Below are positions 43,919-63,590 of a stretch of DNA of 64,000 nucleotides, piece after piece. A model generated the notes under the pieces. It was given only the letters and a program-made list of their open reading frames with translations, was not told where the DNA came from and made no database searches. Each line of letters opens with the position of its first letter. Within the stretch, counting starts at the first letter, position 1. Made by a program: the position numbers and the translations under genes. The DNA is from Pedobacter arcticus A12 (lineage in GTDB: Bacteria; Bacteroidota; Bacteroidia; Sphingobacteriales; Sphingobacteriaceae): the NCBI RefSeq assembly GCF_000302595.1, contig NZ_JH947127.1:62001-126000 (forward strand), read 5' to 3'.

Positions 43919-46900
43919 CTACTTACCAAAAGACAAAAATTTTCCGGCGCTATTGCTTCTGTATTCGGGAGCATACATACTTTCTATTGTACTTATTCCT
44001 GTACTAAATTTTCCGCTCTGCGCTACCCTTAATTCATACTCAAACACATAATTCCCCTTTCTTAAATAATTGATAAAGAAGTTGGTAGAAACATCTTTGC
44101 TCACCTGATAATAAAACAAACCATCCTGAGCATTATACCTCGATATCTGTTGTGTAGGCTCGGTAGCGGAAGGACGCATGTCTTTTAATAACACATACTC
44201 GTAATCTCGATCGCTTTTTAAAGTAACAATCACTTTTATTAGATCACCAATTTTAGCCAGATAATTTGCGTCAATCTCCATATAGGTACTATTCTGTTGA
44301 TTTTTCAGATAGTATTTACGAATCAGCTTTAAGCCATTTGCTCCCGGCTTTACCTTATCCTGATTTTCGGTGTATTGCCAGTACATTGCACCGAACGCTG
44401 TTTGTGGTGCATTGGTAATTTCTACTTTTCCAAAATCCGGACGGATATCATCTTTGAGCCAATTGGTTTTGATATAACCTGTCTGATCCTCGGCTTTTAA
44501 AGCTGGTTTAAGTTCAAAAACACTTTTGCCACCTAATTTTATTTCGGGAATACGGTTATTTTCTAAAACGTTTGACTGTTTTAACAAAGCGTAACAAGCC
44601 AATGTAGTAGCTTTACTTGTTCCCCAATTATTGGTTTGCTTTTGACGCAACAGCCATAATTTAAGTTCGGGCAAAAGCGTTGAAGTTGGTTCGGTTTCCT
44701 CCAGCATCTCTATCACCAAAGCATGTGTTTCAATAGGTAACTGGTACCAAAAGCAGCCCCAGTTTACGCTTGGCCAATAAGCGCCCATATCTTTGGTTTT
44801 AATTGCTCGGTCTTTTATTGAGCTACTGATAGTTTTGGAAAGCTCTTTTTCGCCTAATCGTGATAAAGTAAACGCGGCTAAAGTTTGCTGATATAAACTA
44901 AAACTTAGCCAGTGTGCTTTTATATCTTTAACGTAAGCCTGCCATTTAACATTTAAATCCGTGGGAACTGTTTTTTCAAAATAGCTGATTGCATACCAGG
45001 CATGTGCATCTAAATAAACATTATCCTTGCCTTCTATTTTACTTTTCACATAAACCAAAAGCTTCTGCGTAACTTCTTCTTGAGTTTTATCTGTTGTTAG
45101 CGCTCCGAAACCTTTTAATTGGCCCAAACCAGCCAAAATATATTGGGAAATAAATTGGTCTTCATAAGTACCGCTCATCCATGGAAAAGCGCCGTTTGCC
45201 AACTGTAACTGTTTTAGCTTGTTGCTGTAAATAGATTGCTGTTTTTGTATCGAATCCATCTGGAAAAACAATGCAAGCTTTCGTTGCTGTTCTTTCTCGC
45301 TTGCTGCATTTTTTAACCAAGGGCTTTCCTGCAATAAGATTGATTTCAGCTCGGGATTTTTAGCTAACTGGGTTATGCTGGCATTGTTGCTACTATCTTT
45401 AAATTTGGCGAAATAGTTTTTTATTCCCGGATTTTTATCCAAAATGCGGGTTGCAATCGCATTTGCATACAAAGCGCTAAAAATTGGTTCCGAACCTTCG
45501 TATCTAGGTTCTGCCAAGTAAGGAATTGCTTCCGCTACCAACCAATTGGGGTTTGCGGTCCATTCAAAAGTGAGGCTTTTGTGCTGTAACGTTTTACTGT
45601 TATTTTTCACAAAATCCTCGAAAATAAAAGTTTTACTTTCCCCTTCTTTAACCAGCATACTCATGCTTTGGGTAAGCAAAATACTGTTTGATAAAACTGG
45701 AGCACTATTTTGTTCACCATCTGAAAATTTCCCAGCATCTACAATAAATCGATAGCCTATTGCTTCCACTCCCTCTGGTATCGCCAAACTAAGCTCTGCC
45801 ATAGCATTACTGTTTGGGCTAATGTTAAACTGGTTTTCCGGGCTGTTAATCAAAACATTTAAAACCTTATTATTTAACAGGTTATAAAACTCAACTCTTA
45901 AATTAGCTTTTAAACTATCTATTGTAAGATTGATGACCCTCAATTTAACGTTTACGGTATCTCCAGTTCTAAAAAAACGAGGCATATTGCTCTGTACCAT
46001 CAAGCTTTTTTGTGCTACAAGTTGCGTATCAATAGCTATACTGTTCAGTTCTTTATCGTAAGCGAAAGCTTTAAAGTGCCATTTTGTTAAGGCATCTGGT
46101 AAGGTAAAAGGCATTGTAAAAACACCACGCTCGTCAGCTTTTAATTGTGGGATAAAAAGTGCCGTTTCGGCAAAATTTGTCCGCATGGTTTTACCTACTA
46201 AATCATCAGCGCTGGTAAAAATCTGATTAACTGCTTCGGCCTGTACACCAGCAACAGCACCTGTTAGGTCGCTTCTCTTTTGAGTTCCGTAACCTACTAC
46301 TACAACTTCATTTAAACCATTTATGGGTCCTTCTCCTAATGACGTATTAATTTGAACGTCTCCACTGCTTAAAACATTAGTTCCTCTAATCATTATTTCC
46401 ATATTGGGGTTTCCTTTAATGGTTTTAATGCCCTTATCAACTGATCTGTTGATGGTAATTATTGGATAGTTTGTATCGCTTTTACAGGTTATTTCTACAA
46501 GTTTTTGATCTGCATACTCAATGGAAATCTTGCTATTTTCTGGAACTTTGATCTTAAAATAACCGAAAGAGTTACTTACCGTACTGATATTTTTATCTTT
46601 TAGTCTGATAATTGCGCCAGGAACTCCTAAGCCAGTTTGATAATCAACCACTCTCCCATTATAATCAAAACCTGTTTTTACTGCCTTTGCATTTTGCAGA
46701 TATTGCACTTTAATCAAAGAATCCTGGTAGGTGTTGACGCTGATTTGCTTTACGCGATTTTTGTACTCACGGAATGCGGAATTATAATTTCCAACATAGT
46801 TATAATTACCAAAGTCGATGCTTTCATAAAATTTGGGAGAAAAGTATGGAGAAAAATATGACTCACTTCTCGTACTGCTTTGTACCGAACGATTAAAACT

Positions 46901-49900
46901 ATAGATATTCCATACACTGTTGAAGTAAGAAAACCTTGAGCCACTTTTGTTTTTAAATAAGGTTTGCCAATTTTGAGAGCTATAAACTGCATCTAAAGAC
47001 GCATCGTACATCGTCGCTACCACTTCTGCATCCGCTGGCTGACCGTTTTGTGTGGTGATGCGTAAGCTGATTTTATCTTTTTGTCCCGGCTCCAGTTTGC
47101 TTTGGAAGTTTAAAAATTGATAATTCAGCTTTTCTTGCTTTTGTTTGAGTGTAAGGCTTTGATTAAAAGTAAGAACCCTGTTTTTGTAAACCATCAAAAA
47201 AGAAATATTTAGCAAGGGTTTATCCCCTAAACCTAAGGTAATTAATCTTGGTTGCTTCCCTGTTTTAATCCATTGGCTCTGTATTTTTTTCTCTTCATCA
47301 AAAACCTCCATCAACACATAGACTTGGGGCATGTTAATGCTAAAAGTTGCTTTCTCGGTTTGTAAAATCTGCGTTCGGTCTACCGTTAGCCAATTGTTGA
47401 TTTTTTGGGCAATTGCTGGTTTATGGATATAATAAAAATCGAAAACACGACTTACAGTATCTCCATCAACAGATTTAGCTTTAATCTCTATCTGATAGTC
47501 CCCAGTTTCTAGGTTGCTTATTTTATCGAATTTCAGCGTAAAAGCAGAAGAATCACCATTCATTGTAAGCGACTCAATCCTAATCGAGTTTGATGATTTT
47601 TCGGTATCTCCAATTGGCGCTACATCTGGAAAATGTTTTTGGTAATCTTTTAACGAAATAAACGAACTATCTACTTTTTTAAACAACCTAGTTTTTGAAT
47701 ACAATTTTTTAGGTTCTAATTTACTTAGCGAAGCCTCAATGTTTCCATTAACCGGATGAAAGCTCAAGTTTTTTAAGCTTATTTTAAACGGTTTAGCATC
47801 AATTTTCGTGACTTTAGAGGGGATTTCTGCATAAATAAAAATATTGTTCTTCTTTACACGAGTGTGAGCACTTTTAATCTGTGTTTCTCCATTTTCATCG
47901 GTCACGGTTACGGCTAAGCTATAGTTGATCAATTGCTTTTCTATCGGAACTCTAACAAAATGAGAAGCCAAAAAGCTCACTTTAAACTCTCCATTACCGT
48001 CAGTCAAAACGGTAGCTGCTTTCAAAAGTTGCTGGCCAAAGTTTGATTGTTCAAAGTTGGGAATGTAGTTTAAAGACCGATTCAAAACATACGCTACTTT
48101 TGCATTTGGCAAGGCGTAACCATTATAAGCCAGTACTTTTCCTTTAAAAGTTACACTGTCATTTAAGTTGTAGGTTTGCTTTTCTGGTATTAAACTAACT
48201 TCAAAATTTGGTCTTTTATATTCTTCTAACAATACGCTACCCGCATCGTTATCATTAACTTCAAACCTTATTCTACCGTTTAAAACTTGTTGCGGAATAA
48301 CAAAACTCCCCTCAAAACTTCCAAACTCGTTGGTGATGGATTTCATGTCGGCTAATTTGGTTCCGTCCTGAGATTTGGCATGAAACTCCACCACAGAATT
48401 GCTTGCAAGCTTTGCTTTTTCCGCTCTTTTATCAAAACAGATCCCTTTAAAATAAACGGTTTGCCCGGGGCGGTAAATAGCCCTATCTGTGTAAACTACA
48501 GAACTGTTTTTGTCTGCTACCAACTGTGTTTTATAATTCCTTTTGTTAAACGATATTCTTTCCTGGTTTAGGGTGTCTTTTTTATAGATGATCTTTAGGT
48601 CCAGATAATCGTATCTATCTACTACTTTTGGAGTTATTACGAATAAACCATCATTCACTTCCGCAACAGCATTCACAACTTTTTCCATCTTTTTTGTAAG
48701 CCTACTATACCCCAAAGCAGCGATTTCCGCATTTTTAATAGGCTTTCCAGATTGTCTTTCCTGAACGATGAAGGTATTTTTGTTGTATTTATTTTGCGTA
48801 GAACTAATAATGGAAATATTGCTAACCTTTAGATAGGTTGTGCTGTGTTTTTCTTGAGACGAACTGTATTCATTCAGTATATAATAATCACCCGTTGGCA
48901 GTGCATCCAGTTTAAACTCGTAGATATGGTTCTGGTAATCTGTAAATTCTGATAGGTTTAAAGTATCAATCCTATAAACCTGTTTGTTTCTTAATTTAAT
49001 AAATACACTATCTGCATGCTGGGTTACGAAATTAAAATTATTAGTCTTTAATGCGCCAATTTCGTTATCATTTATTTTATAGATTTCTAAAACCAGCTTT
49101 TTTGCATTCTTATGATTCACTAATCCTAAAACAGCCTGATCTGGCGTATTTATCTCTTCAAAGGTTAAGTCCGCTTTTACCTCCTCAATGGCTTTTATAC
49201 CATTTTTTGCAATTATCGTATAAGCTGAATCTAATGTCAGCTCTTTTAATTGCTGGTAATAATCAAATGCCTTAATTTTCTCGGCCTTATTGTAATAATA
49301 CTGCGCAAGCTTTGCCGTAGCTTCAGATGCAATACCATTTAACTTTGTTTGCCCAGCTAATTCTCCCAACCTTTTTATATACAAACTGTCTTTATTATAG
49401 ATATTGGTGTTTTTATAAATAAAATCCAGCTTTCTCAGTTCCAAATCTGCTACCGCTTCTTCGTTATGATTTGCTAAATGAAAAGCAGTAGCTTGCTGAA
49501 TCAGCTTTAAACCTTTTAAATAGTTGTGGTTTGCCTGTTCGTCGGTCAAATTAATTTGTATAAACCCAATAGTTGGTTTAAATAAATCTGGATTAAAAAG
49601 CAAAAACAGCGGTTTGGGTTGATTGATAGTCGCATTATAGCTTAAATAATAATCTAAAGCTCTGTTAAGCAACAAGTCGTAAAGCGTTGGCCGATATTTT
49701 CTGGTGGTTTGGTCACCAATTAAAACAGCATCGTAATTACCTATTGGAATGCGCTGTAATTCTTTAAGATTATTTAATGAAGCTTGATATAAATAGCCTG
49801 TCTCTTCTAATAGTTTGATAGTTCCCCAAAAAGTAAAATCTGTGTTTTGGATAGCTAAATCACTTCGTTGACTTATTTTATACCGATTTTGATTGTAGTA

Positions 49901-50242
49901 TTTATTATAAATCTCGGCTTCAAAAGATTGTAAAATATTTCTTGTTGGGAATGCTGCAACTTTAATCTCTTGGTTTAAACTGCTGATGATTTTTGCAATG
50001 GCATCTTCCTGCAAATAGCTGATGAACTTAATCTTATAAACGGTACACTTCAGAAATAAGGTTTCATTGGCTTCCTTTTTAGCCAAAGCTTGTAGCTTTT
50101 CCACTTTCGCTAAGGCCGCCTGTGGTTGACCGATACTTTCTAAAGAATCTATGCTATAAAAAACATCGTTAAAGTTAGTTTGTGCAAAAACCGGCTTTGA
50201 AGCACAGTAAAAAAAGAATAGTAAGATATATAGCTTTTTCAT
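43919..50242 (-). CDS. Giant alpha-2-macroglobulin-family protein without thioester
   Basis: 2107 residues with a signal peptide ending near PVFAQ (21). An N-terminal ~550-residue region without clear family is followed by MG2-type beta domains (VYTDRAIYRPGQTVYFKG near residue 580; FEVSLIPEKQTYNLNDSVTFKGKV; YALPNAKVAYVL). Near residue 1190 a carboxypeptidase-regulatory-like segment begins (GRVVDYQTGLGVPGAIIRLKDKN), ending with NEVVVVGYGTQKRSDLTGAV (near 1310), a SusC plug signature. An MG7-like part (TALFIPQLKADERGVFTMPFTLP) and the alpha/alpha-toroid region (1560-1850) follow, with YEGSEPIF (about 1580) where other members have the thioester C-x-E-Q. In bacteria such proteins are thought to trap proteases (family knowledge); here trapping by thioester is impossible. 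Likely periplasmic or outer-membrane; 68 bp after a secreted thioredoxin-fold gene. Confidence 0.9.
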   Translation of the reverse strand: MKKLYILLFFFYCASKPVFAQTNFNDVFYSIDSLESIGQPQAALAKVEKLQALAKKEANETLFLKCTVYKIKFISYLQEDAIAKIISSLNQEIKVAAFPTRNILQSFEAEIYNKYYNQNRYKISQRSDLAIQNTDFTFWGTIKLLEETGYLYQASLNNLKELQRIPIGNYDAVLIGDQTTRKYRPTLYDLLLNRALDYYLSYNATINQPKPLFLLFNPDLFKPTIGFIQINLTDEQANHNYLKGLKLIQQATAFHLANHNEEAVADLELRKLDFIYKNTNIYNKDSLYIKRLGELAGQTKLNGIASEATAKLAQYYYNKAEKIKAFDYYQQLKELTLDSAYTIIAKNGIKAIEEVKADLTFEEINTPDQAVLGLVNHKNAKKLVLEIYKINDNEIGALKTNNFNFVTQHADSVFIKLRNKQVYRIDTLNLSEFTDYQNHIYEFKLDALPTGDYYILNEYSSSQEKHSTTYLKVSNISIISSTQNKYNKNTFIVQERQSGKPIKNAEIAALGYSRLTKKMEKVVNAVAEVNDGLFVITPKVVDRYDYLDLKIIYKKDTLNQERISFNKRNYKTQLVADKNSSVVYTDRAIYRPGQTVYFKGICFDKRAEKAKLASNSVVEFHAKSQDGTKLADMKSITNEFGSFEGSFVIPQQVLNGRIRFEVNDNDAGSVLLEEYKRPNFEVSLIPEKQTYNLNDSVTFKGKVLAYNGYALPNAKVAYVLNRSLNYIPNFEQSNFGQQLLKAATVLTDGNGEFKVSFLASHFVRVPIEKQLINYSLAVTVTDENGETQIKSAHTRVKKNNIFIYAEIPSKVTKIDAKPFKISLKNLSFHPVNGNIEASLSKLEPKKLYSKTRLFKKVDSSFISLKDYQKHFPDVAPIGDTEKSSNSIRIESLTMNGDSSAFTLKFDKISNLETGDYQIEIKAKSVDGDTVSRVFDFYYIHKPAIAQKINNWLTVDRTQILQTEKATFSINMPQVYVLMEVFDEEKKIQSQWIKTGKQPRLITLGLGDKPLLNISFLMVYKNRVLTFNQSLTLKQKQEKLNYQFLNFQSKLEPGQKDKISLRITTQNGQPADAEVVATMYDASLDAVYSSQNWQTLFKNKSGSRFSYFNSVWNIYSFNRSVQSSTRSESYFSPYFSPKFYESIDFGNYNYVGNYNSAFREYKNRVKQISVNTYQDSLIKVQYLQNAKAVKTGFDYNGRVVDYQTGLGVPGAIIRLKDKNISTVSNSFGYFKIKVPENSKISIEYADQKLVEITCKSDTNYPIITINRSVDKGIKTIKGNPNMEIMIRGTNVLSSGDVQINTSLGEGPINGLNEVVVVGYGTQKRSDLTGAVAGVQAEAVNQIFTSADDLVGKTMRTNFAETALFIPQLKADERGVFTMPFTLPDALTKWHFKAFAYDKELNSIAIDTQLVAQKSLMVQSNMPRFFRTGDTVNVKLRVINLTIDSLKANLRVEFYNLLNNKVLNVLINSPENQFNISPNSNAMAELSLAIPEGVEAIGYRFIVDAGKFSDGEQNSAPVLSNSILLTQSMSMLVKEGESKTFIFEDFVKNNSKTLQHKSLTFEWTANPNWLVAEAIPYLAEPRYEGSEPIFSALYANAIATRILDKNPGIKNYFAKFKDSSNNASITQLAKNPELKSILLQESPWLKNAASEKEQQRKLALFFQMDSIQKQQSIYSNKLKQLQLANGAFPWMSGTYEDQFISQYILAGLGQLKGFGALTTDKTQEEVTQKLLVYVKSKIEGKDNVYLDAHAWYAISYFEKTVPTDLNVKWQAYVKDIKAHWLSFSLYQQTLAAFTLSRLGEKELSKTISSSIKDRAIKTKDMGAYWPSVNWGCFWYQLPIETHALVIEMLEETEPTSTLLPELKLWLLRQKQTNNWGTSKATTLACYALLKQSNVLENNRIPEIKLGGKSVFELKPALKAEDQTGYIKTNWLKDDIRPDFGKVEITNAPQTAFGAMYWQYTENQDKVKPGANGLKLIRKYYLKNQQNSTYMEIDANYLAKIGDLIKVIVTLKSDRDYEYVLLKDMRPSATEPTQQISRYNAQDGLFYYQVSKDVSTNFFINYLRKGNYVFEYELRVAQSGKFSTGISTIESMYAPEYRSNSAGKFLSFGK

Positions 50243-50310: not shown

Positions 50311-51639
50311 TTATTCCACATTGAGGTATCGGATTTTTTCTAAATCACTCCTATACTTTGAACGTAAGGCTTCGGATATATTCGGAGTGTTGATTACTTC
50401 CCGCTGTAATTTCTCGGCTTCAGCAGAAAAGCCAGATAGGTAAAGTAGTTGCGCTAACGTTGCTTTTGCTCTGTAAAAGTGTGGCGACAATAAAAGTGTA
50501 TGCCGACAATAATTTATCCCTTTATTCAGATAGAATGGATCTCTAATATGGTATTTAACAATTTGATTTGCCCCGTAATATAGTCTATCTGGAAAATAAT
50601 CTTTACTCCCTACGGTTACGATACTGCCGTTTTTAACACCACTCTTCACCATTTCATTTTTTCTTTTTTCAGCTAATTTAGCTTCATATTTTTTAGATGA
50701 ATCTGGTGTAACCAGCAGGTATTTATCATAGTACTTGCATAAATAAATCAAGAAGTTTGAGGTATCTTTTGTGCTTCTGTAATAGTTCATCATCACCCAT
50801 GGGCTGTATATTTCCTTATCATAATCGTTTTTATTATACCTGTACTGATAGGATCTGGCCACGTTTTGGATCATTTTTAAATTTCTTGTTTCTGTAGCGT
50901 AGGCGATGGAATTTGTTAATGCCCTTTTATCAAACCGAGGGGAATAATTAGAGTATTCTTTCTTATAAATAGCATTATATAACTCTTTATGGGTAACCGC
51001 CTTCTTACTTGCTAAGCCACTGTAAAATGGTCCTGCCCGCATAATCAAAAGTAATATTTCTGAATTTTCAGTATCTGCTTCATCCATTTCAGTAGCAAAT
51101 TTTTCTATCAATTCGCCGTTATCGTATTGCTTCAATTGTAATTTTAGCCCGATAAAATCTTTTAATTCTTTTTTTGTGATTGTATTTTGCGCTAATTTGT
51201 CCTTATAAAATTTCAGATGACTCAATTTTTTGGCTTTTTCCAAAGCACTGTCCCTCATTAATTCAAAGTCTTTCACCAGTTTATTCACACCGAAACTGCT
51301 GTGTAGCAAATTACTATCGGCATCAAAAATATAGTAAGCAGGCAGTATTTTAGGCAATTGCTTTTTAAATAAAAAGCTGGTTAAGCTATCGCCAATAGAA
51401 ATACGGAAACATCTGAAATTTTGGCTCAAAAACGTGGCAGTTTCTTTATTTGTAAGCGAAGAATAGCTTCTAATTTTTTTGACCTTAACCTTATTATAAT
51501 CAGATAACTGAAGTTCAATAAAAACAAGTTTTTTGCTGTTCTTTAATTTTAAAAAATCAACAGTTCCTGATGTGTCAATTTGCGCAAATGCCGAAAAGCA
51601 TAAAAAACAAACAACAACAAGCAGGTAGTGTTTTTTCAT
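50311..51639 (-). CDS. Secreted thioredoxin-fold-like protein lacking active-site cysteines
   Basis: 442 residues with a signal peptide (MKKHYLLVVVCFLCFSAFAQ, cleavage at 20). Residues 30-125 have a thioredoxin-like strand order (KKLVFIELQLSDYN.....SYSSLTNKETATFLSQNFRCFRISI ... LPAYYIFDADSNLLHSSFG, with the cis-proline in LPAYYIF), but no CxxC is present. The C-terminal two thirds is helical, with repeated hairpins of TPR character (AKATLAQLLYLSGFSAEAEKLQ). It sits upstream of the A2M-like gene on the same strand. No oxidoreductase role is expected; a scaffold role is a guess. Confidence 0.75.
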   Translation of the reverse strand: MKKHYLLVVVCFLCFSAFAQIDTSGTVDFLKLKNSKKLVFIELQLSDYNKVKVKKIRSYSSLTNKETATFLSQNFRCFRISIGDSLTSFLFKKQLPKILPAYYIFDADSNLLHSSFGVNKLVKDFELMRDSALEKAKKLSHLKFYKDKLAQNTITKKELKDFIGLKLQLKQYDNGELIEKFATEMDEADTENSEILLLIMRAGPFYSGLASKKAVTHKELYNAIYKKEYSNYSPRFDKRALTNSIAYATETRNLKMIQNVARSYQYRYNKNDYDKEIYSPWVMMNYYRSTKDTSNFLIYLCKYYDKYLLVTPDSSKKYEAKLAEKRKNEMVKSGVKNGSIVTVGSKDYFPDRLYYGANQIVKYHIRDPFYLNKGINYCRHTLLLSPHFYRAKATLAQLLYLSGFSAEAEKLQREVINTPNISEALRSKYRSDLEKIRYLNVE

Positions 51640-56322: not shown

Positions 56323-56916
56323 ATGGTTACAGAGTATTATCAACCGTGTAAATCGTCTATTGACAATGAGCTTCTCATTTCTATTAGAAATGATGACCGG
56401 TTTGCATTTAATACAATTTATAATCAATACTGGTCAAAACTTTATTTATTTGCGTACAATATTTTAAGAAATCGCGAAGCTGCCGAAGATATTGTTCAAG
56501 ACATTTTCATTCAACTTTGGCAAAAAAGAGCCGACGTTCACATCGATAACCTACAAAACTATTTATACACTGCGGTTCGGTATCAAGTATTCAGATCAAT
56601 TAGAGATGGAAAAAACCGTACGAATTTGCTTGAGCGATTCCTAAAGTTTAGTCCACAAGTTGAGATAGAAAGCGTACTCTTCGAAAAGGAAATAAACCAA
56701 CGTTTGGATGAAAGTATCGCACTTTTACCTGCTCGGTGTAAAGAAATATTTACGCTTAGCAGAAAAGAACATTTATCTATAAAAGAAATTTCTAAAAGAT
56801 TAGAGATTAGCCCTAAAACTATCGAAAACCAGATTACTATAGCAATACGTCGCGTCCGAGCTAATATGACTGATCTTTTCACTTGGCTTGTGTTCTTAAT
56901 TTACTATTGCCTTTAA
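56323..56916 (+). CDS. ECF RNA polymerase sigma factor (FecI-like)
   Basis: 197 residues. Region 2 is NDDRFAFNTIYNQYWSKLYLFAYNILRNREAAEDIVQDIFIQLWQK, region 4 LPARCKEIFTLSRKEHLSIKEISKRLEISPKTIENQI, the standard Bacteroidota ECF type (sigma70-like, about 190 residues). It probably drives the susC/susD operon behind it, in answer to a signal relayed by the FecR gene 76 bp on (counting from its likely start) and the STN domain of SusC (family knowledge). Confidence 0.94.
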   Translation: MVTEYYQPCKSSIDNELLISIRNDDRFAFNTIYNQYWSKLYLFAYNILRNREAAEDIVQDIFIQLWQKRADVHIDNLQNYLYTAVRYQVFRSIRDGKNRTNLLERFLKFSPQVEIESVLFEKEINQRLDESIALLPARCKEIFTLSRKEHLSIKEISKRLEISPKTIENQITIAIRRVRANMTDLFTWLVFLIYYCL

Positions 56917-56992
56917 AACTTCTAATTTATTTTTGTACTTCTTTGGGGGCAAATGTATTTTTACGGTACATACTGTTAAAAGCAATACTATT

Positions 56993-58165
56993 TTGACAGA
57001 AGAAAAATTCAAGAGTTTACTCAACAACTATTTAGAAGGAACCGCAAGCGAACAAGACCAACAAAGGTTAATTAACTTTTATGATGATATCCAAAAAGAT
57101 AAATTAAGTTGGATAACTTCAGAGATGGGTGAACAAGAACAAGTTCGACAAGCTCTTCTAAATAAGATAAATGATCGCTTAGATTGTAAATCAAAAAAAC
57201 TTAAAAACAAAAACCGTTGGCAACTATCTATTGCAGCTTCCTTAATTTTGCTTCTCAGCATAGGGAGTTATACATATCTTAAACTTCATCAAAAAGAAAT
57301 TGCTTATCATCAAAAATCCAACGAAATCAAACCTGGTTGCAACAAAGCTATTCTAACCTTAGCTAACGGCAAAAAGATTAGCCTCGATGACAGCCATAGC
57401 GGTAAGATTGTGGAAGAGGCAGGCGTTCTCATCACCAAAACAGGTGAAGGAAAACTGGTTTATAATGTTGTTACTAGTAAAGCGCTACCTGCCGATGTTG
57501 CGATTACTTATAATACAATAAGCACCCCAAAAGGTGGGCAATATCAAATTGATTTGCCTGATGGTACAAAAGTGTGGTTAAACGCAGCATCTTCATTAAA
57601 ATATCCCATTCAATTTAAAACTAATGAAAGGATAGTTGAATTATCAGGAGAAGGGTATTTTGAAGTGGCCAAAGATAAAAGCAGACCATTTAAGGTGATT
57701 ACCGCTATGCAACAAGTAGAAGTTTTAGGAACTCATTTTAACATCAATTCTTACAGCGACGAGCCATCGGTAAAAACTACTTTATTAGAAGGCAAAGTCA
57801 GCGTATTTCCACTATACACGAACAAAAAGAAAGGAAATCCTGATACCCAACATGCCATATTGAAACCCAACCAGCAATCTGTTATGATTGACCAACAAAT
57901 TAAAGTTTTAGCTATTGATGCTCAAACTGTTATAGACTGGAGAAATGGGGAGTTTATATTCAATGACGAACCTATTAAAACAGCGATGAGAAAATTAGCC
58001 CGTTGGTACGATGTGGATGTTGTTTACGAGGGTAATTTTGACGACATCTATTTCGGTGGATCTTTTTCCAAGTTTGTCAACCTCAATGAGTCTGTTAAAA
58101 TATTAGAATCTACCAATAAATTACGATGCAAAATCATAGGAAGGAGGGTTTACATGAAGAGATAA
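56993..58165 (+). CDS. FecR-type anti-sigma factor
   Basis: 390 residues from a TTG at 56993 (LTEEKFKSLLNNYLEG..., the usual Bacteroidota FecR N-terminus); an upstream TTG at 56933 would add 20 residues with no family match, and no ATG is in frame, so the start is uncertain. A cytoplasmic N-domain, one membrane helix (LSIAASLILLLSIGSYTYL), the FecR domain (TPKGGQYQIDLPDGTKVWLNAASSLKYP, GEGYFEVAKDKSRPF, LGTHFNINSY), and a C-terminal DUF4974 domain (DWRNGEFIFNDEPIKTAMRKLARWY). It holds the ECF sigma inactive until the SusC STN domain signals. Confidence 0.92.
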   Translation: MTEEKFKSLLNNYLEGTASEQDQQRLINFYDDIQKDKLSWITSEMGEQEQVRQALLNKINDRLDCKSKKLKNKNRWQLSIAASLILLLSIGSYTYLKLHQKEIAYHQKSNEIKPGCNKAILTLANGKKISLDDSHSGKIVEEAGVLITKTGEGKLVYNVVTSKALPADVAITYNTISTPKGGQYQIDLPDGTKVWLNAASSLKYPIQFKTNERIVELSGEGYFEVAKDKSRPFKVITAMQQVEVLGTHFNINSYSDEPSVKTTLLEGKVSVFPLYTNKKKGNPDTQHAILKPNQQSVMIDQQIKVLAIDAQTVIDWRNGEFIFNDEPIKTAMRKLARWYDVDVVYEGNFDDIYFGGSFSKFVNLNESVKILESTNKLRCKIIGRRVYMKR

Positions 58166-58198
58166 GATGCACTTCCATCTGTGTAGCCCACAAAAAAA

Positions 58199-58222
58199 CC
58201 GGAAGTGTTAGCGCACTTCCGG
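58199..58222 (+). promoter_or_regulatory. Perfect hairpin in the susC leader
   Basis: CCGGAAGTG-TTAGCG-CACTTCCGG, a 9-bp GC-rich stem 108 bp upstream of the susC start and 33 bp after the fecR stop. It is preceded by A7 and has no T run after it, so it is not a standard terminator; it may be a leader or mRNA-stability element. Confidence 0.5.
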
Positions 58223-58330
58223 CAATCAATAAAATGGACCCTACAGCAATACCTAATCGAAATTACTAACCAAACCAATATAGTCTAGTTTGTAAAGGCT
58301 ATACTTTATTAATCCAAATTATTCAAATGT

Positions 58331-61300
58331 ATGAAAATTTATAATTTTAATTTATATGAACTTCTCCATATAAAGGGTAAAATTTTACTGACTATGAAGT
58401 TTATACTCATCCTGTTTTTAACCAGCATTTTACAGGTAAACGCTGCAAGTTATGCGCAAAAGAATATCAAACTTTCAGAAAAAAACGCACCCTTAACAAA
58501 GATTTTAAAATCCATTAAATCACAAAGTGGTTATAATGTGTTTTTTATCCAAAGCGATCTTAATAAGGCGAATCCTGTAACTATTGAAATTAAAGACGCC
58601 TCATTAGACGAAGTCCTCAAATTGTGTTTTTTTAATCAGCCTTTAAATTATACGATAGAGGCTAAAACGATTATCATCAAAGAAAAGCTAACTGAAAGTT
58701 TAGAAAAAGCAGATCCAATTAAAATTTCGGGTACAATTAGAGATGGTGCTGGTCTGCCTATTCCTGGCGTTGCGGTTAAGATTGTAGGAAAAAAAAGAGC
58801 AACAGTGACCAATACTTTGGGGAAGTATTCGATTGAAGTTGAACTTAGAGATTTGTTAGAGTTTTCTTATTTAGGTTATACTTCAAGGACCATAGAGGTT
58901 ACTGGAATCGGGAGTATAGATGTAATCTTAGAACCAGCCGAGGCTAACAAATTAGATGAAATAGCCGTGGTTGGTTATGGAAAGCAGAAGAAAATAAGTG
59001 TGGTTGGAGCATTAACAACCATTAAACCCGAAGAATTAAGAATTCCGACCAGTAATTTATCGAATGCCTTAGCAGGAAAATTAGCTGGAGTTATTGCTTT
59101 CCAGCGTTCTGGAGAGCCAGGTGCCGACGGTGCTTCTTTTTACATTAGAGGTATTTCTACCTTTAGTGGTGCTACTAGTCCATTAATTGTTTTAGATGGA
59201 GTGGCAGTTAGTCAAGGTGATTTAAACGCTTTGGCTCCAGAGGTCATCGAAAGCTTCTCTATTTTAAAGGATGCCACTGCAACTGCGATTTATGGCTCGA
59301 GAGGAGCAAATGGGGTAATGATTGTAACTACCAAAACCGGAAAAGATTTAGAGCGTCCGCGGATAAATTTGAGAATAGAAAATTCGATTTCTGCACCAAG
59401 TTCTGTACCTAAATTTGTAGATGGGGCAAGATTTATGGAGCTCTATAATGAAGCAGTAATTGGGCGTGGAACTGGGGAACGTCCTTATCAACAGGACAAA
59501 ATAGATGGAACTCGAGCACACCTAGATCCACTCGTTTTCCCAGACGTAAACTGGTACGATGAAATGTTCAAAGCTTCTTCTCAAAACCGTAGTGTAAATT
59601 TCAATATCCTAGGTGGGGGTAAGCGTATCGATTATTTTATGAGTGGAACCTACAACCAAGATAATGGGATGCTCAAAAAATTTGATGTGAATAGTTACGA
59701 TAATAATATTTCTGTAAAAAGATACTCTTTCCAAAACAACTTAAACGCAAATTTATCAAGTACTACAAAGTTAGCTTTACGAATAAATACGCAGTTAAGA
59801 GACTATTCAGGTGCATCTAGACCAGTAAAAGACATCTTTGGCGATGCTATGAATGCGAATGGAGTAGATTTTCCAATTATTTTCCCTAATGCTACTGGTA
59901 GTAAAAGTATTCTTTTTGGAGGTAAATCGGGAGGTCGCGTAAACGGAGGCTTTATTAATCCTTTTGCTGAAATGGTTAGAGGTTATAGCAATAATTTTCA
60001 GAGTACTGTAATTGCTACTGTTGATGGTGAGCAAAAATTGGACTTTATAACCCCTGGACTATCTTTCAAAGCATTGGCCTCTTTCAAGAATTATAGTGAA
60101 ACAAATACAATACGAATAAGAAATGTCAATAACTTTGAAGTCAATCCAGCTACCTTGGTTGCGGGAGCAGATGGAAAGTACACTTATGATCTCGCTCAAG
60201 TAGGGTCTACTTTAAGTGAAACGTTAGAGACTACCAATCAACCGGCAGGAAATAGAAAGCTATATTTCCAAGCATCTTTTGATTATAATAAAACTTTTGG
60301 TGTTAGACACAATGTGTCTGGTTTATTGTTATATAACCAAGAAGAGTTTAACGTAAATGCTCCTGCAGATTTTATTTCTTCTTTACCTAGACGTTCTCAA
60401 GGTATTGCAGGACGTACCACTTATTCTTATGACAATAAGTATTTAGCAGAGTTTAATTTTGGCTATAATGGTTCTGAAAGTTTTTCAAAAAACAATAGAT
60501 TTGGATTTTTCCCTTCAGCAGCATTAGGATATGTGTTAAGTAGTGAACCTTTTTTAAAACCGTTAGCTAATGTGGTTAGCTTTCTTAAATTCAGAGGATC
60601 TTGGGGACTGGTTGGTAATGATCAAATCTTATTGGGCGATGGAACCCCTGCGAGATTCATTTATTTATCGGATATAGACTTACAAGGGCAACAGTTTACT
60701 ACCGGAGTAAGCCAAGACTATAGCAAAAGCGGTCCACTCTATTCACGTTTTGCAAATCCTAATATTACTTGGGAAGTTGCCGAGAAGATTAATCTTGGCA
60801 TGGACTTAAGCCTGTTTAGAGATTTAAATATTACTGTTGACATATTTAAGGAAAACCGTAAAAACATATTTTTGACGCGTCGGGTAATACCAGACTTCTT
60901 CGGAACCACCGGTACGACGGTTTATAGTAATTTAGGAAAAGTATTAAATAAAGGGATAGATGCCTCTGTAGATTATACACGTGAACTCTCTTCTAATTTA
61001 ACCATGAGCCTTAAAGGTACTTTTACTTTAGCTAAAAACAAGGTAATTGCGAATGATGAACCTGCGTTTACAAAATACAAAAACATCTCTTCGGTGGGTT
61101 ATCCAGTAAACTCTTTATTAGGCTACGAAGCCCAACGACTATTTATTGATCAAGCAGAAATAAGTCGCAGTGCTTTACAACAAATTGGTGGATTCGTACA
61201 AGCAGGAGATCTAAAATATCGAGACGTAACCAATGATATTGATGGATTAAATATGGTAAATAGCGATGACCGTATTAGAATGGGGTATCCCACAGTTCCG

Positions 61301-61750
61301 GAAATTGTATATGGTTTTGGACCGTCTTTTAGGTTTAAAAAGATAGATTTTTCCTTCTTTTTCCAAGGGGTAGCACATACTTCCTTCTTTATAAGTGGTT
61401 TTCATCCATTCGGAACTAGCGATCAACGTAACGTTTTAAGATTTGTAGAGGCAGACCATTGGAGTCCCGAAAACCCAAATATCTACGCCGCTTATCCTCG
61501 TCTAAGTAAATTAGATAATCCTAATAACACAACAAACTCTTCTTTTTGGTTAAGGAATGGTTCATTTTTAAAACTAAGAAATGTAGAGTTAGGTTATACT
61601 CATAAATTTTTACGGGTTTATGTGAGTGGCTTAAATGTACTTACTTTTTCTAAGTTTAAAGAGTGGGATCCTGAACAAGGCGGAGGTAATGGATTATCAT
61701 ACCCAACGCAACGAGTGTTTAATGTTGGACTACAAATGGGCTTTAAATAA
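58331..61750 (+). CDS. susC: SusC/RagA-type TonB-dependent transporter with STN signalling domain
   Basis: 1139 residues. A signal peptide (ends near SYAQ, about residue 43), then an STN domain (about 45-125, LSEKNAPLTKILKSIKSQSGYNVFF) that links the receptor to FecR, a carboxypeptidase-regulatory-like domain (about 135-210, ISGTIRDGAGLPIPGVAVKI), the SusC signature LDEIAVVGYGKQKK, the plug (ISVVGALTTIKPEELRIPTSNLSNALAGKLAGVIAFQRSG) and the 22-strand-type barrel. It imports oligosaccharides or other oligomers across the outer membrane with energy from TonB. The next gene is its SusD partner, 4 bp on. The substrate is not inferable: no hydrolase gene is visible yet. Confidence 0.95.
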   Translation: MKIYNFNLYELLHIKGKILLTMKFILILFLTSILQVNAASYAQKNIKLSEKNAPLTKILKSIKSQSGYNVFFIQSDLNKANPVTIEIKDASLDEVLKLCFFNQPLNYTIEAKTIIIKEKLTESLEKADPIKISGTIRDGAGLPIPGVAVKIVGKKRATVTNTLGKYSIEVELRDLLEFSYLGYTSRTIEVTGIGSIDVILEPAEANKLDEIAVVGYGKQKKISVVGALTTIKPEELRIPTSNLSNALAGKLAGVIAFQRSGEPGADGASFYIRGISTFSGATSPLIVLDGVAVSQGDLNALAPEVIESFSILKDATATAIYGSRGANGVMIVTTKTGKDLERPRINLRIENSISAPSSVPKFVDGARFMELYNEAVIGRGTGERPYQQDKIDGTRAHLDPLVFPDVNWYDEMFKASSQNRSVNFNILGGGKRIDYFMSGTYNQDNGMLKKFDVNSYDNNISVKRYSFQNNLNANLSSTTKLALRINTQLRDYSGASRPVKDIFGDAMNANGVDFPIIFPNATGSKSILFGGKSGGRVNGGFINPFAEMVRGYSNNFQSTVIATVDGEQKLDFITPGLSFKALASFKNYSETNTIRIRNVNNFEVNPATLVAGADGKYTYDLAQVGSTLSETLETTNQPAGNRKLYFQASFDYNKTFGVRHNVSGLLLYNQEEFNVNAPADFISSLPRRSQGIAGRTTYSYDNKYLAEFNFGYNGSESFSKNNRFGFFPSAALGYVLSSEPFLKPLANVVSFLKFRGSWGLVGNDQILLGDGTPARFIYLSDIDLQGQQFTTGVSQDYSKSGPLYSRFANPNITWEVAEKINLGMDLSLFRDLNITVDIFKENRKNIFLTRRVIPDFFGTTGTTVYSNLGKVLNKGIDASVDYTRELSSNLTMSLKGTFTLAKNKVIANDEPAFTKYKNISSVGYPVNSLLGYEAQRLFIDQAEISRSALQQIGGFVQAGDLKYRDVTNDIDGLNMVNSDDRIRMGYPTVPEIVYGFGPSFRFKKIDFSFFFQGVAHTSFFISGFHPFGTSDQRNVLRFVEADHWSPENPNIYAAYPRLSKLDNPNNTTNSSFWLRNGSFLKLRNVELGYTHKFLRVYVSGLNVLTFSKFKEWDPEQGGGNGLSYPTQRVFNVGLQMGFK

Positions 61751-61754
61751 AAAA

Positions 61755-63590
61755 ATGATGAAGAAACTAAAATATATTTTATTGATCGTGGTATGTTTTA
61801 CCATACCCAATGTTGGATGTCAAAATTTTCTGGACGTTGTGCCAGACGAAAGACCAACAGAAGCGGATGCATTTAAAGATGAATTTGCAGCAGAAAACTT
61901 CCTGTATTCTTGTTACTCGTCTCTACCAACACCGAGGGTTGGACAGAATGCAATAGATTTAATGACTACAGACGAAGTGGTTACCGCATTTGAACATGAA
62001 ACTTTTGCAAGATTCCCAAAAGGGACTTTCACTGCTTCAACACCAGTAATTTCTTATTGGGCTACCCTTTATAAAGGAATAAGACAATGTTATATCTTAA
62101 TTAACAATATAGATCAGGCTCCGGGATTAACAACCGAAAATAAAGCGCTATATAAAGCAGAAGCTAAATTTTTAGTCGCTTATTATCATTTCTTATTGGT
62201 GCGCATGTATGGGCCGGTGGTTATCGTAAAAGAAGTAAAAGACATAGAATCTGATGCAAGTACTTACGATGCCCGTTCTAAATATGACGATTGCGTAAAA
62301 TTTATATGCGATATGTTTGATGAGGCAGCAAGCAATTTACCGCCAAAGCAAACGGGTTCTGCATATGGAAGAGCAACAAGCACAGCTGCAAAAGCAATTA
62401 AAGCAAGAATGTTGTTATATGCAGCTTCTCCTCTTTTCAACGGTGGTGGTGGACTTGCTACAAGCTTTTATACTGATTTTAAAGACAAAGCAGGTGTTCA
62501 GTTAATTCCTACAACCTTTGATAAAGAGAAATGGAAAAAAGCTGCAGATGCAGCTAAAGAAGCAATTGATTTTGCCGAGTCTCAGGGTTACGCTTTATAT
62601 AAAAACTCAGTGGTTCCAGGCTTACCGTCCAATCCAATTGAAAAAGATCTACGTTATACCTATATAGATAAGACTTCTACAGAAATCATTTGGGCGGACA
62701 CCAGACGAGAAGGAATTTATGATTTTCAAAATAAATCTACGCCTTTCCTTAATGCTGGTGCTTATAATGGTGTTGCACCAACATTGTCAATTATCGAGCA
62801 ATTTTATACAGAAAACGGTTTACCAATTGATAAAGATCCAAGTTTTGGTTACGCTAACCGTTATGGCATTGGTGTTTCTCCATTCGGAGGCACCACTTTA
62901 AATTTAAACTTGAAACGAGAACCTAGGTTTAAAGCATGGATTGCGTATCACAATAGCAATTATGAGATTCAAAGACCTGGTGTTGAGTTTGTAAAAGTTC
63001 TCTTCAGGAAAAATGATAACTGTGGTATAAAAACTAGAAGTAACAATTATTCTCCAACAGGTTATCTGAATAAAAAAGGAGTTAACCCACAATTTGGATC
63101 GGGACAGGCACAAGAACTGCAACCTACTGTATCAGAATCCTATCCATGGCCAGTAGTAAGGTTAGCCGAACTATACCTAGACTATGCAGAAGCTTTGATC
63201 GAATATGGGGTGGATTTGGGTACTGCAAAAACTTATATCGACAAGGTCCGTGTTCGGGCGGGTATTCCTACCATCGATGCTGCATGGACTCCAATAGGAG
63301 GCGCCAACGATTTGGCAACTTTACGTTCAATTGTTCGCCAAGAACGTACCATTGAATTCTATTTAGAAAATCAACGTTTTTGGGATTTACGACGATGGAT
63401 GATTGCAGAACCTTATTTAGGCGTAAAAGCAAAAGGAATGAATATACAGGGCACTTCTGATGCCACCTTTTTTACCGTCACAGAAGTAATATTCCCTAGA
63501 GCATTTCGCTCTCCTGCATTTTACCTAATGCCCATTCCAATTGGGGAAATTAATAAAGATGAAACTCTAGTACAAAACCCAGGATATTAA
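61755..63590 (+). CDS. susD: SusD/RagB-type surface lipoprotein
   Basis: 611 residues from ATG at 61755 (MMKKLKYILLIVVCF), chosen over an open extension back to 61635 because that overlaps susC and lacks a signal peptide. It has a lipobox ending in Cys (PNVGC, about residue 21), then the SusD N-domain (NFLDVVPDERPTEADAFKDEFAAENFLYSCYSSL) and TPR-like helices (YKAEAKFLVAYYHFLLVRMYGPVVIVKE) and the C-terminal VRLAELYLDYAEALIEYG, IVRQERTIEFYLENQRFWDLRRWMIAE. It binds substrate outside and passes it to SusC, forming the lid of the transporter. Confidence 0.95.
   Translation: MMKKLKYILLIVVCFTIPNVGCQNFLDVVPDERPTEADAFKDEFAAENFLYSCYSSLPTPRVGQNAIDLMTTDEVVTAFEHETFARFPKGTFTASTPVISYWATLYKGIRQCYILINNIDQAPGLTTENKALYKAEAKFLVAYYHFLLVRMYGPVVIVKEVKDIESDASTYDARSKYDDCVKFICDMFDEAASNLPPKQTGSAYGRATSTAAKAIKARMLLYAASPLFNGGGGLATSFYTDFKDKAGVQLIPTTFDKEKWKKAADAAKEAIDFAESQGYALYKNSVVPGLPSNPIEKDLRYTYIDKTSTEIIWADTRREGIYDFQNKSTPFLNAGAYNGVAPTLSIIEQFYTENGLPIDKDPSFGYANRYGIGVSPFGGTTLNLNLKREPRFKAWIAYHNSNYEIQRPGVEFVKVLFRKNDNCGIKTRSNNYSPTGYLNKKGVNPQFGSGQAQELQPTVSESYPWPVVRLAELYLDYAEALIEYGVDLGTAKTYIDKVRVRAGIPTIDAAWTPIGGANDLATLRSIVRQERTIEFYLENQRFWDLRRWMIAEPYLGVKAKGMNIQGTSDATFFTVTEVIFPRAFRSPAFYLMPIPIGEINKDETLVQNPGY

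Follow-up and report, generated by a model that had tools for sequence, protein, structure and literature searches.

An alpha-2-macroglobulin gene with a transporter-like segment

The DNA analysed here, hereafter the window, is a stretch of 64,000 nucleotides of Pedobacter arcticus A12 (contig NZ_JH947127.1, positions 62,001 to 126,000). It contains an open reading frame (ORF) for a protein of the alpha-2-macroglobulin (A2M) family, whose bait position holds a segment derived from the front end of SusC-type TonB-dependent transporters. In humans, A2M is a blood protein that works as a spring-loaded protease trap. The Ton box is a short transporter segment that the motor protein TonB takes hold of. 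Bacterial A2Ms were reportedly first described in 2004, and we know of no settled role for these traps in bacteria. The anatomy of the window protein, the homology of the inserted module, its recurrence across species and the constraint on its Ton box were all established by computation.

The domains MG2, PF00207 and bMG10 follow each other in A2M order in the window protein, all above the Pfam cut-offs (Table 1), and the closest solved structures by sequence are A2Ms and complement C3. The protein is the sole match of its kind in its own genome. Including that genome, full A2M matches were obtained in 3 of the 18 genomes of the genus, the remaining matches in these genomes being SusC proteins picked up via the Ton-box segment. 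Pfam and NCBIfam scans matched no outer-membrane barrel domain. No lipobox-like pattern was found at the signal peptide, so the protein is probably soluble in the periplasm, judging from its N-terminus.

Table 1. Features of the window A2M gene and its product (window positions; all on the minus strand)
Feature	Residues	Window position	Strand	Basis or remark
A2M-family protein, 2107 aa		43919..50242	-	ORF, no internal stop; signal peptide residues 1-21 (by eye)
MG2 domain	582-667	48242..48499	-	Pfam PF01835, 69.0 bits
Bait position (269 residues)	1086-1354	46181..46987	-	100-protein alignment; model against E. coli A2M 855-1074
Stalk helix (predicted)	1155-1187	46682..46780	-	AlphaFold2, predicted confidence (pLDDT) rising from ~45 to 88
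SusC-type N-terminal extension (NTE), PF13715-like Ig/transthyretin fold	1189-1266	46445..46678	-	AlphaFold2, Foldseek, VIA
IMIRGTNVL	1283-1291	46370..46396	-	like plug motif IRIRGxxSL; below motif threshold
Ton box LNEVVVVGYG	1310-1319	46286..46315	-	sequence only (TIGR04056, PDB sequence matches, motif profile)
First plug residues TQKRSDLTGAVAGVQ (~15 residues)	1320-1334	46241..46285	-	remaining plug absent
A2M domain PF00207 / MG7 start	1360-1449	45896..46165	-	Pfam, 63.0 bits
Former thioester site YEGSEPIF	1581-1588	45479..45502	-	YECSEQxF-like in most relatives
bMG10 C-terminal domain	1970-2093	43964..44335	-	Pfam PF17973, 104.7 bits

The SusC-derived insert occupies the bait

The bait is bounded by the end of the bait-region domain (VVATMYDASLDA, residues 1074-1085) and by the first strand of MG7 (TNFAETALF, residues 1355-1363). 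Its sequence is highly variable, with a mean column identity of 10% in an alignment of 99 survey regions and the window protein. In a structure model of residues 1020-1470, model residues 16-451 align with residues 855-1074 of E. coli A2M (Z 14.2, root-mean-square deviation (rmsd) 6.4 over 175 residues); a passage of PMC4498604 reports that bait residues 923-942 of the cleaved E. coli protein have no density. Because both the 100-protein alignment and the model alignment with E. coli A2M place it there, the SusC-derived insert lies in the A2M bait.

Within the bait, the predicted stalk helix leads into a domain that was modelled with pLDDT block means of 81-95 (69 in the last block). Its top Foldseek match in the PDB was the NTE of SusC BT3090 (9hfj; E = 2.3e-4, template modelling score 0.85 by target length, rmsd 1.4 Å, 24% identity), and VIA-align superposed all 80 residues on the same structure with Z 12.8 and rmsd 2.4. 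By sequence the NTE scores 29.9 bits against a Pfam cut-off of 32.2. The carboxypeptidase-regulatory-like segment already recognised in the first-pass annotation, which was made from the sequence alone, extends over residues 1195-1256; its Pfam scores of 28.8 and 26.0 bits are both below cut-off, and the fold confirms it.

Beyond the NTE, a stretch predicted to be disordered (residues 1268-1349, pLDDT block means 26-41) holds the Ton box, which is followed by the first plug residues; NEVVVVGYGTQKRSDLTGAV spans residues 1311-1330. The bait matches the SusC/RagA model TIGR04056 with E = 3e-13. A search of PDB sequences gave 3 matches, all of them SusC homologues (8aa4, E = 7e-6; 5t3r, E = 2.7e-4; 6zlt, E = 0.56), and LNEVVVVGYG was aligned on DEVVVTGYT of 5t3r (presumably Bt1763, given its DEVVVTG Ton box). 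For Bt1763, passages of PMC7782687 place the Ton box at 82-DEVVVTG-88, describe a growth defect like that of a non-functional transporter upon removal of VDEVVV, and report a 9-kDa N-terminal extension (Pfam 13715), Ig-like in its fold, located before a Ton box found flexible by nuclear magnetic resonance (NMR). The window bait has the same layout, a folded NTE followed by a Ton box in a predicted-disordered stretch.

The first-pass annotation had announced an A2M with a SusC plug signature in the bait position, and had considered a TonB-box-like contact. The SusC-type signature and the Ton box are indeed there. The term plug needs correction: the signature consists of the Ton box and the first plug residues, after an NTE, and the Plug domain PF07715 is matched by Pfam neither in the window protein nor in its bait, although it is matched in relatives. 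The plug-like IMIRGTNVL precedes the Ton box, the reverse of the SusC order; INIRGTTSL likewise precedes it in the orthologue L093 (loci carry L numbers and genomes G numbers), and L075 has the opposite order. By eye, a recurring motif, approximately DPGVKSxxGDPNAxIRIDEPVG, was also seen at or near the Ton-box place in L068, L074, L081, L165-L167 and L170, and at about residues 1270-1285 of the window protein.

Recurrence in the subfamily of the window protein

To survey the subfamily of the window protein (subfamily 1), 100 regions, chosen for spread and not at random, were taken from matches in 77 of 201 genomes of the family and 84 of 395 genomes of the phylum, five genomes giving two regions each. 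L159 gave no ORF, and the other 99 regions with the window protein made 100 baits. The survey takes in members of other subfamilies (L153-L156 and L160), of which L160, L153 and L155 are L353, L356 and L355 of the second survey described below. Loci from named genomes were added as the best 80 of at least 578; 8 of these 80 had no bait by pattern, and the baits of L195 and L211 were cut too long.

With E-values up to 0.01, CarbopepD_reg_2 was matched in 29 of the 100 baits, Plug in 19, TIGR04056 in 39 and TIGR04057 in 18. A profile built from 24 SusC N-termini placed 59 of the 100 above the 99% level of shuffled baits, a threshold that about 1 in 100 shuffled baits passes by construction. Ton-box and plug motifs gave 104 matches in 53 baits (18,144 residues, 5.7 per 1000) and, outside the baits, 13 matches in 10 proteins (186,841 residues, 0.07 per 1000), a density about 80 times higher in the bait than in the remaining protein over the 100 proteins. 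The strong matches outside the bait are real plug pieces. In L064 (about residues 835-890) and L072 (about 885-935), a loop of an MG domain farther upstream contains a plug core and the bait of the same A2M holds a Ton box; the L064 core is above the Pfam cut-off (28.4 versus 23.9 bits). A plug can therefore be split between two places of one A2M.

The first-pass annotation had reserved the case of a random resemblance or of two genes wrongly joined by the assembly. The oddness of the architecture is all that speaks for such an artefact; the same architecture occurs in many genomes, and the 59 baits above threshold compare with about 1 per 100 expected from shuffled ones, which leaves it a negligible probability. 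Because the module recurs in many genomes, we conclude from these comparisons that the SusC-like insert is neither chance nor misassembly.

The module of subfamily 1 ranges from NTE, Ton box and plug core together to nothing. A looser count, weak matches included, finds a Ton box in 45 of the 100 baits, and the strict hexamer is present in 49 of 172 rows, surveyed and named. By a loose pattern, 13 baits including that of the window have a plug motif before the Ton box, and 4 (L067, L100, L135, L137) have one at the strict threshold. Among named organisms, pieces of the NTE, Ton box or plug occur for example in Pedobacter, Mucilaginibacter, Botryobacter, Winogradskyella and Wocania. A backbone tree was computed with FastTree, the bait being left out, and came with long-branch warnings; its 168 rows are the 172 without L160 and without three named proteins that duplicate survey proteins. 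The least numbers of changes on this tree were 14 for the NTE (39 rows), 33 for the Ton box (60 rows) and 12 for the plug core (22 rows). Close sister proteins can be unlike: L110 has a bait of 135 residues, and L229 (Wocania) one of 288 that contains an NTE and a plug core. In this tree, the window protein joins first L075 (support 99) and then L093 (support 83), within a clade of 36 rows whose named members are mostly Mucilaginibacter and Pedobacter.

Metagenome-assembled genomes labelled Acidobacteriota, Cloacimonetes, Calditrichota and Ignavibacteria (L212, L230, L239, L209) also hold a long A2M of this kind, by transfer or misbinning. Shorter MG2-plug proteins were considered as a third kind and rejected: a 771-aa ORF was by eye an ordinary receptor, and the L162 stretch contains no such gene. 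One scan of viral contigs found no relative.

A second subfamily carries the module almost universally

A search with the plug of L094 led to a 1953-residue ORF in G023, in which Pfam recognises MG2, CarbopepD_reg_2, Plug, A2M and bMG10 in this order, the last four above cut-off and MG2 at 32.0 bits against a cut-off of 32.8. Matches to this subfamily 2 were found in 32 of the 201 family genomes, two of them being only fragments; in the phylum, 12 of 390 genomes had matches, 4 of these close. In total, 34 baits were read (30 from the family and 4 from the phylum). All 34 match CarbopepD_reg_2 (NTE) and TIGR04056, 33 match TIGR04057 and 32 match Plug; the Ton box is present in 33 and the thioester motif C-x-E-Q in all 34. 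The module therefore coexists with the thioester motif. At the level of sequence, subfamily 2 is the stronger evidence that the SusC module matters.

Six of 20 named genomes searched had a subfamily 2 match, that of Botryobacter covering only 81 residues. The five others are Mucilaginibacter pedocola, M. sp. SMC90, M. gilvus, Chitinophaga sp. S165 (two copies) and Dawidia soli. Read by eye, all six of their baits show an NTE and a Ton-box-like stretch, and all except L365 (Chitinophaga) a plug core. The two genes of Chitinophaga sp. S165, L365 and L368, lie about 6 kb apart and have SusC front ends of different types. No subfamily 2 member was found in the genome of the window. The 8 other phylum matches, of the C-V-E-Q/C-L-E-Q kind (1649-2000 codons), have no Ton box or plug, and two of them have an NTE-like stretch. 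Among Bacteroidota C-V-E-Q A2Ms (L153-L156, L354, L356), some baits likewise show an NTE-like or carboxypeptidase-like domain and no Ton box. Such A2Ms possibly represent a stage that preceded the SusC module.

Constraint on the Ton box

Conservation was measured on pairs of nearest relatives. The first member of each pair was picked for its Ton-box hexamer (in subfamily 2 also for its plug core) and the partner was not so picked; reciprocal pairs of subfamily 2 were counted once, so that 17 of the 34 proteins' pairs remained. These 17 pairs have a mean identity of 66.5% after the bait. Their Ton box is 84% identical (143/170), compared with 79% for the MG7 start, 58% for the plug core, 52% for the NTE, and 40% and 34% for the 15-residue flanks that precede and follow the Ton box, and the partner retains the hexamer in all 17. 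The 41 pairs of subfamily 1 gave 52% identity for the Ton box (214/410) versus 29% on each side. As to the conservation of the SusC signature, which the first-pass annotation had made a point to verify, the answer is thus divided: high for the Ton box in subfamily 2, often eroded or absent in subfamily 1. Because of its strong conservation in subfamily 2, the bait Ton box probably does something.

This bears on the idea of a mere passenger, namely a tolerant bait loop in which a transporter segment landed once and is now eroding without any role. Such a history would account for the plain erosion in subfamily 1, the scattered states on the backbone tree (Ton box 33 changes, plug core 12), the permuted and partial module pieces and the unequal baits of the sisters L110 and L229. 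It fits poorly with a module that is near-universal alongside the thioester motif in subfamily 2, with a Ton box there as conserved as the MG7 start, and with 9 of 10 Ton-box positions agreeing between the window protein and L093, two proteins whose identity is 28% before and 37% after the bait. We consider the passenger improbable.

The same constraint raises the possibility, to which we give clearly less than even weight, of an A2M coupled to TonB. The C-terminal domain of TonB would bind the bait Ton box, so that the trap docks at TonB complexes or has its bait pulled by the proton-motive force; the trap could then be sprung or reset by tension, not only by cleavage. No part of the bait is better conserved than the Ton box in subfamily 2, and in subfamily 1 the Ton box stands out from its flanks. 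It aligns with the Bt1763 Ton box whose deletion, according to the passages of PMC7782687, abolished transport, and it lies in a predicted-disordered stretch like the one that NMR found behind the NTE of Bt1763. Lacking a lipobox pattern, the signal peptide points to the periplasm, the compartment in which TonB acts, and L331 of subfamily 2 keeps NTE and Ton box while its plug is part-replaced by sequence resembling that of another TonB receptor family. Against such coupling, the strict hexamer is missing from 20 of the 41 nearest partners in subfamily 1, and in these pairs the Ton-box columns are 31% identical; a conserved 10-mer also fits a specific protease site; and searches of open-licence PubMed Central gave no paper that connects A2M with TonB.

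Thioester loss in the genus of the window

The first-pass annotation had noted YEGSEPIF in place of a thioester. The site does read so, and it is not representative: C-x-E-Q is kept in 78 of the 100 survey proteins (22 are without the motif) and in all 34 proteins read of subfamily 2. Of the 60 survey proteins having a Ton-box or plug element, 45 have C-x-E-Q. The motif is gone in the window protein (YEGSEP), in L075 (EGCPEN) and in L093 (none), three proteins of the same genus. Because most relatives retain C-x-E-Q, the missing thioester is, as judged by the motif, a loss in the genus of the window and not a general trait. A passage of PMC5764988 reports that MagD of Pseudomonas aeruginosa, which lacks C-x-E-Q, traps protease non-covalently.

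Could the gene simply be dying in this genus, where the A2M has lost its thioester and kept little of the plug, even if the module is functional in other lineages? The loss of the thioester motif in all three genus proteins, their long branches (0.73-1.38) and the presence of the gene in 3 of 18 genomes would agree with this. All three frames are nevertheless open, without stops (2115, 2080 and 1950 codons), the A2M domains of the window protein score well above the Pfam cut-offs, its Ton box is kept, and a thioester-less A2M is functional elsewhere according to the same passage of PMC5764988. We regard decay as very improbable.

Origin of the module

Plug cores of both A2M subfamilies (20 + 31 rows) were compared with those of 61 SusC proteins. 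A single A2M clade was not rejected by the approximately unbiased (AU) test (p = 0.731), and the tree holding the A2Ms together beat the free quick tree by 14.3 log units. Many independent captures were considered and set aside, one A2M clade not being rejected with either the 20 A2M rows (AU p = 0.306) or the 51 rows (0.731). The plug tree has 70 columns, and its SusC rows come from few genomes and were selected by similarity; for this reason the trees favour, and do not prove, a single old capture, after which the module was inherited, lost in places and sometimes replaced.

For the window copy, a fresh capture from SusC proteins of its own genome is not supported: with 48.4 bits and 59% over 46 residues, the best match of its Ton-box segment outside itself is the A2M orthologue of G008, and the best SusC of its own genome reaches 38.5 bits. 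Similarly, the plug of L229 (Wocania) is no closer to SusC proteins of its own genome (59.1 bits) than to those elsewhere (67.7) or to the A2M L206 (62.7). A local replacement of the plug is possible in L066, because its own-genome SusC scores 125.6 bits, above the same-genus A2Ms (88.3 and 87.3), and its row stands among SusC proteins in one tree. In L331 (bait 1162-1503), the SusC-type NTE and Ton box are kept and the plug is a mosaic with SusC-like motifs, part of which matches ORFs of the OMP_b-brl_3 receptor kind (PF14905; 44% over ~100 residues, ~77 bits); on these matches, part-replacement of its plug is clear. L107, L111, L115, L200, L222, L365 and L366 have another SusC start type (LGYA), which suggests part-replacement in these proteins too.

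Proposed function

The reading that we put first, and on which we are evenly divided, is that of a periplasmic A2M-type trap whose bait is a captured SusC-type transporter front end (NTE, Ton box and the beginning of the plug) and serves to mimic a transporter. The macroglobulin ring would present the folded NTE on a stalk, followed by the ~80 predicted-disordered residues that hold the Ton box. A protease attacking exposed periplasmic ends of transporters would cut the mimic in its disordered tail; the cut bait would let the trap close, and the protease would be held, covalently where the thioester is kept and, by analogy with MagD, non-covalently in the window protein. Protease trapping would have been retained, and the bait selected for its likeness to a transporter. 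This requires nothing new about A2Ms. A new TonB-linked role and a plug-derived bait, the two possibilities raised in the first-pass annotation, both keep their weight and gain in sharpness, a transporter-derived segment with a Ton box being found in the bait position and recurring in orthologues.

Several results weigh against the mimic. A decoy for many proteases, or a general protease bait, does not need a conserved 10-mer, and the conservation in subfamily 2 looks as if a specific partner reads it; docking to TonB would better explain why exactly the Ton box is conserved. In subfamily 1 the nearest relative retains the strict hexamer in 21 of 41 pairs (near-misses such as LNEVAVVGYG counted as lost), and 40 of the 100 survey baits have no Ton-box or plug element; because the module is often reduced or absent there, the trap seems able to do without it in many species. 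The genus itself offers little comfort, with a full A2M in just 3 of 18 genomes, all three on long branches, and with the A2M of G003, of the same genus, not among the matches listed for the window Ton-box segment, where its SusC proteins are. Finally, the Ton-box and plug stretches were modelled at very low confidence, perhaps on account of the shallow alignments (18 and 32 rows).

The module joins A2M protease traps and TonB-dependent import. In open-licence PubMed Central, we found no paper connecting the two, nor one on an A2M with a plug domain or such a bait region in Bacteroidota; the architecture is probably already visible in domain databases, because four Pfam domains pass their cut-offs in L319. 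If the mimic is right, the trap protects the periplasmic ends of SusC-type transporters, which indicates which proteases to look for. We hold a bolder claim doubtful: that Bacteroidota possess A2Ms with a working bait Ton box, and that a soluble periplasmic trap has its bait bound, and perhaps pulled, by TonB drawing on the proton-motive force. If TonB did bind the bait Ton box, its clients would extend beyond outer-membrane transporters and an A2M would be under mechanical, energised control. Either way, a 10-residue mutation makes the role of these bacterial A2Ms testable, and annotators should not equate every NTE or Plug match with a transporter.

Gene neighbourhood

The window A2M gene belongs to a run of three same-strand genes, with those of a 442-aa protein and a NUDIX protein. 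The 442-aa protein (window 50311-51639) is encoded just upstream, 68 bases separating the two ORFs, and has no Pfam match at E 0.01 and no NCBIfam match at E 1. It was rejected as a conserved operon partner, no relative of it being present near the named A2M loci (15 kb neighbourhoods). The first-pass annotation had set the gene apart from the classical pairing with a penicillin-binding protein; consistently, no pbpC or penicillin-binding protein was found among the flanking ORFs examined (Pfam on four of them). Near the C-V-E-Q A2Ms L153-L156, no ORF was recognised as pbpC by eye. The three-gene run does not reproduce the six-gene layout of the mag operon, mag homologues not having been searched by sequence.

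Further along the window, Plug, NTE and STN domains are all present in the SusC at 58331, and this protein does read AVVGYGKQKK, as stated in the first-pass annotation. It is part of an ordinary-looking sus locus (56323-63590), in which one sigma-factor-like and one anti-sigma-factor-like protein, recognised by eye, are followed by this SusC with STN and by a SusD.

Comparison with known systems

Type I A2Ms (E. coli ECAM/YfhM, Salmonella SaA2M) share with the window protein the order MG2, PF00207, bMG10 and a bait between the same domains, and three of the five structures that align best with the window model (4rtd, 4u4j and 5a42) are theirs. Unlike them, the window protein has a SusC NTE and Ton box in its bait, no thioester motif and no lipobox pattern, and its gene has no pbpC among the neighbours examined; a passage of PMC5764988 gives type I A2Ms a pbpC neighbour in a number of bacteria. 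MagD, the type II A2M of P. aeruginosa, resembles the window protein by the absence of C-x-E-Q and by the kept bait position. It differs in that a six-gene mag operon is described for it, whereas the window gene lies in its three-gene run, and in that the thioester loss of the window protein sits within a family having mostly C-x-E-Q.

Among TonB-dependent proteins, OMP_b-brl_3-type receptors (PF14905) are comparable for the plug sequence of L331 only; the window copy is SusC-like and has no relation to them. The window protein departs from the SusC/RagA transporters Bt1763 and BT3090 by having no barrel and no STN domain, by a module internal to an A2M and by a plug that is mostly missing. 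It agrees with them in its NTE fold, Ton box and plug start, which stand in the same order, and 32 of the 34 subfamily 2 baits match Plug.

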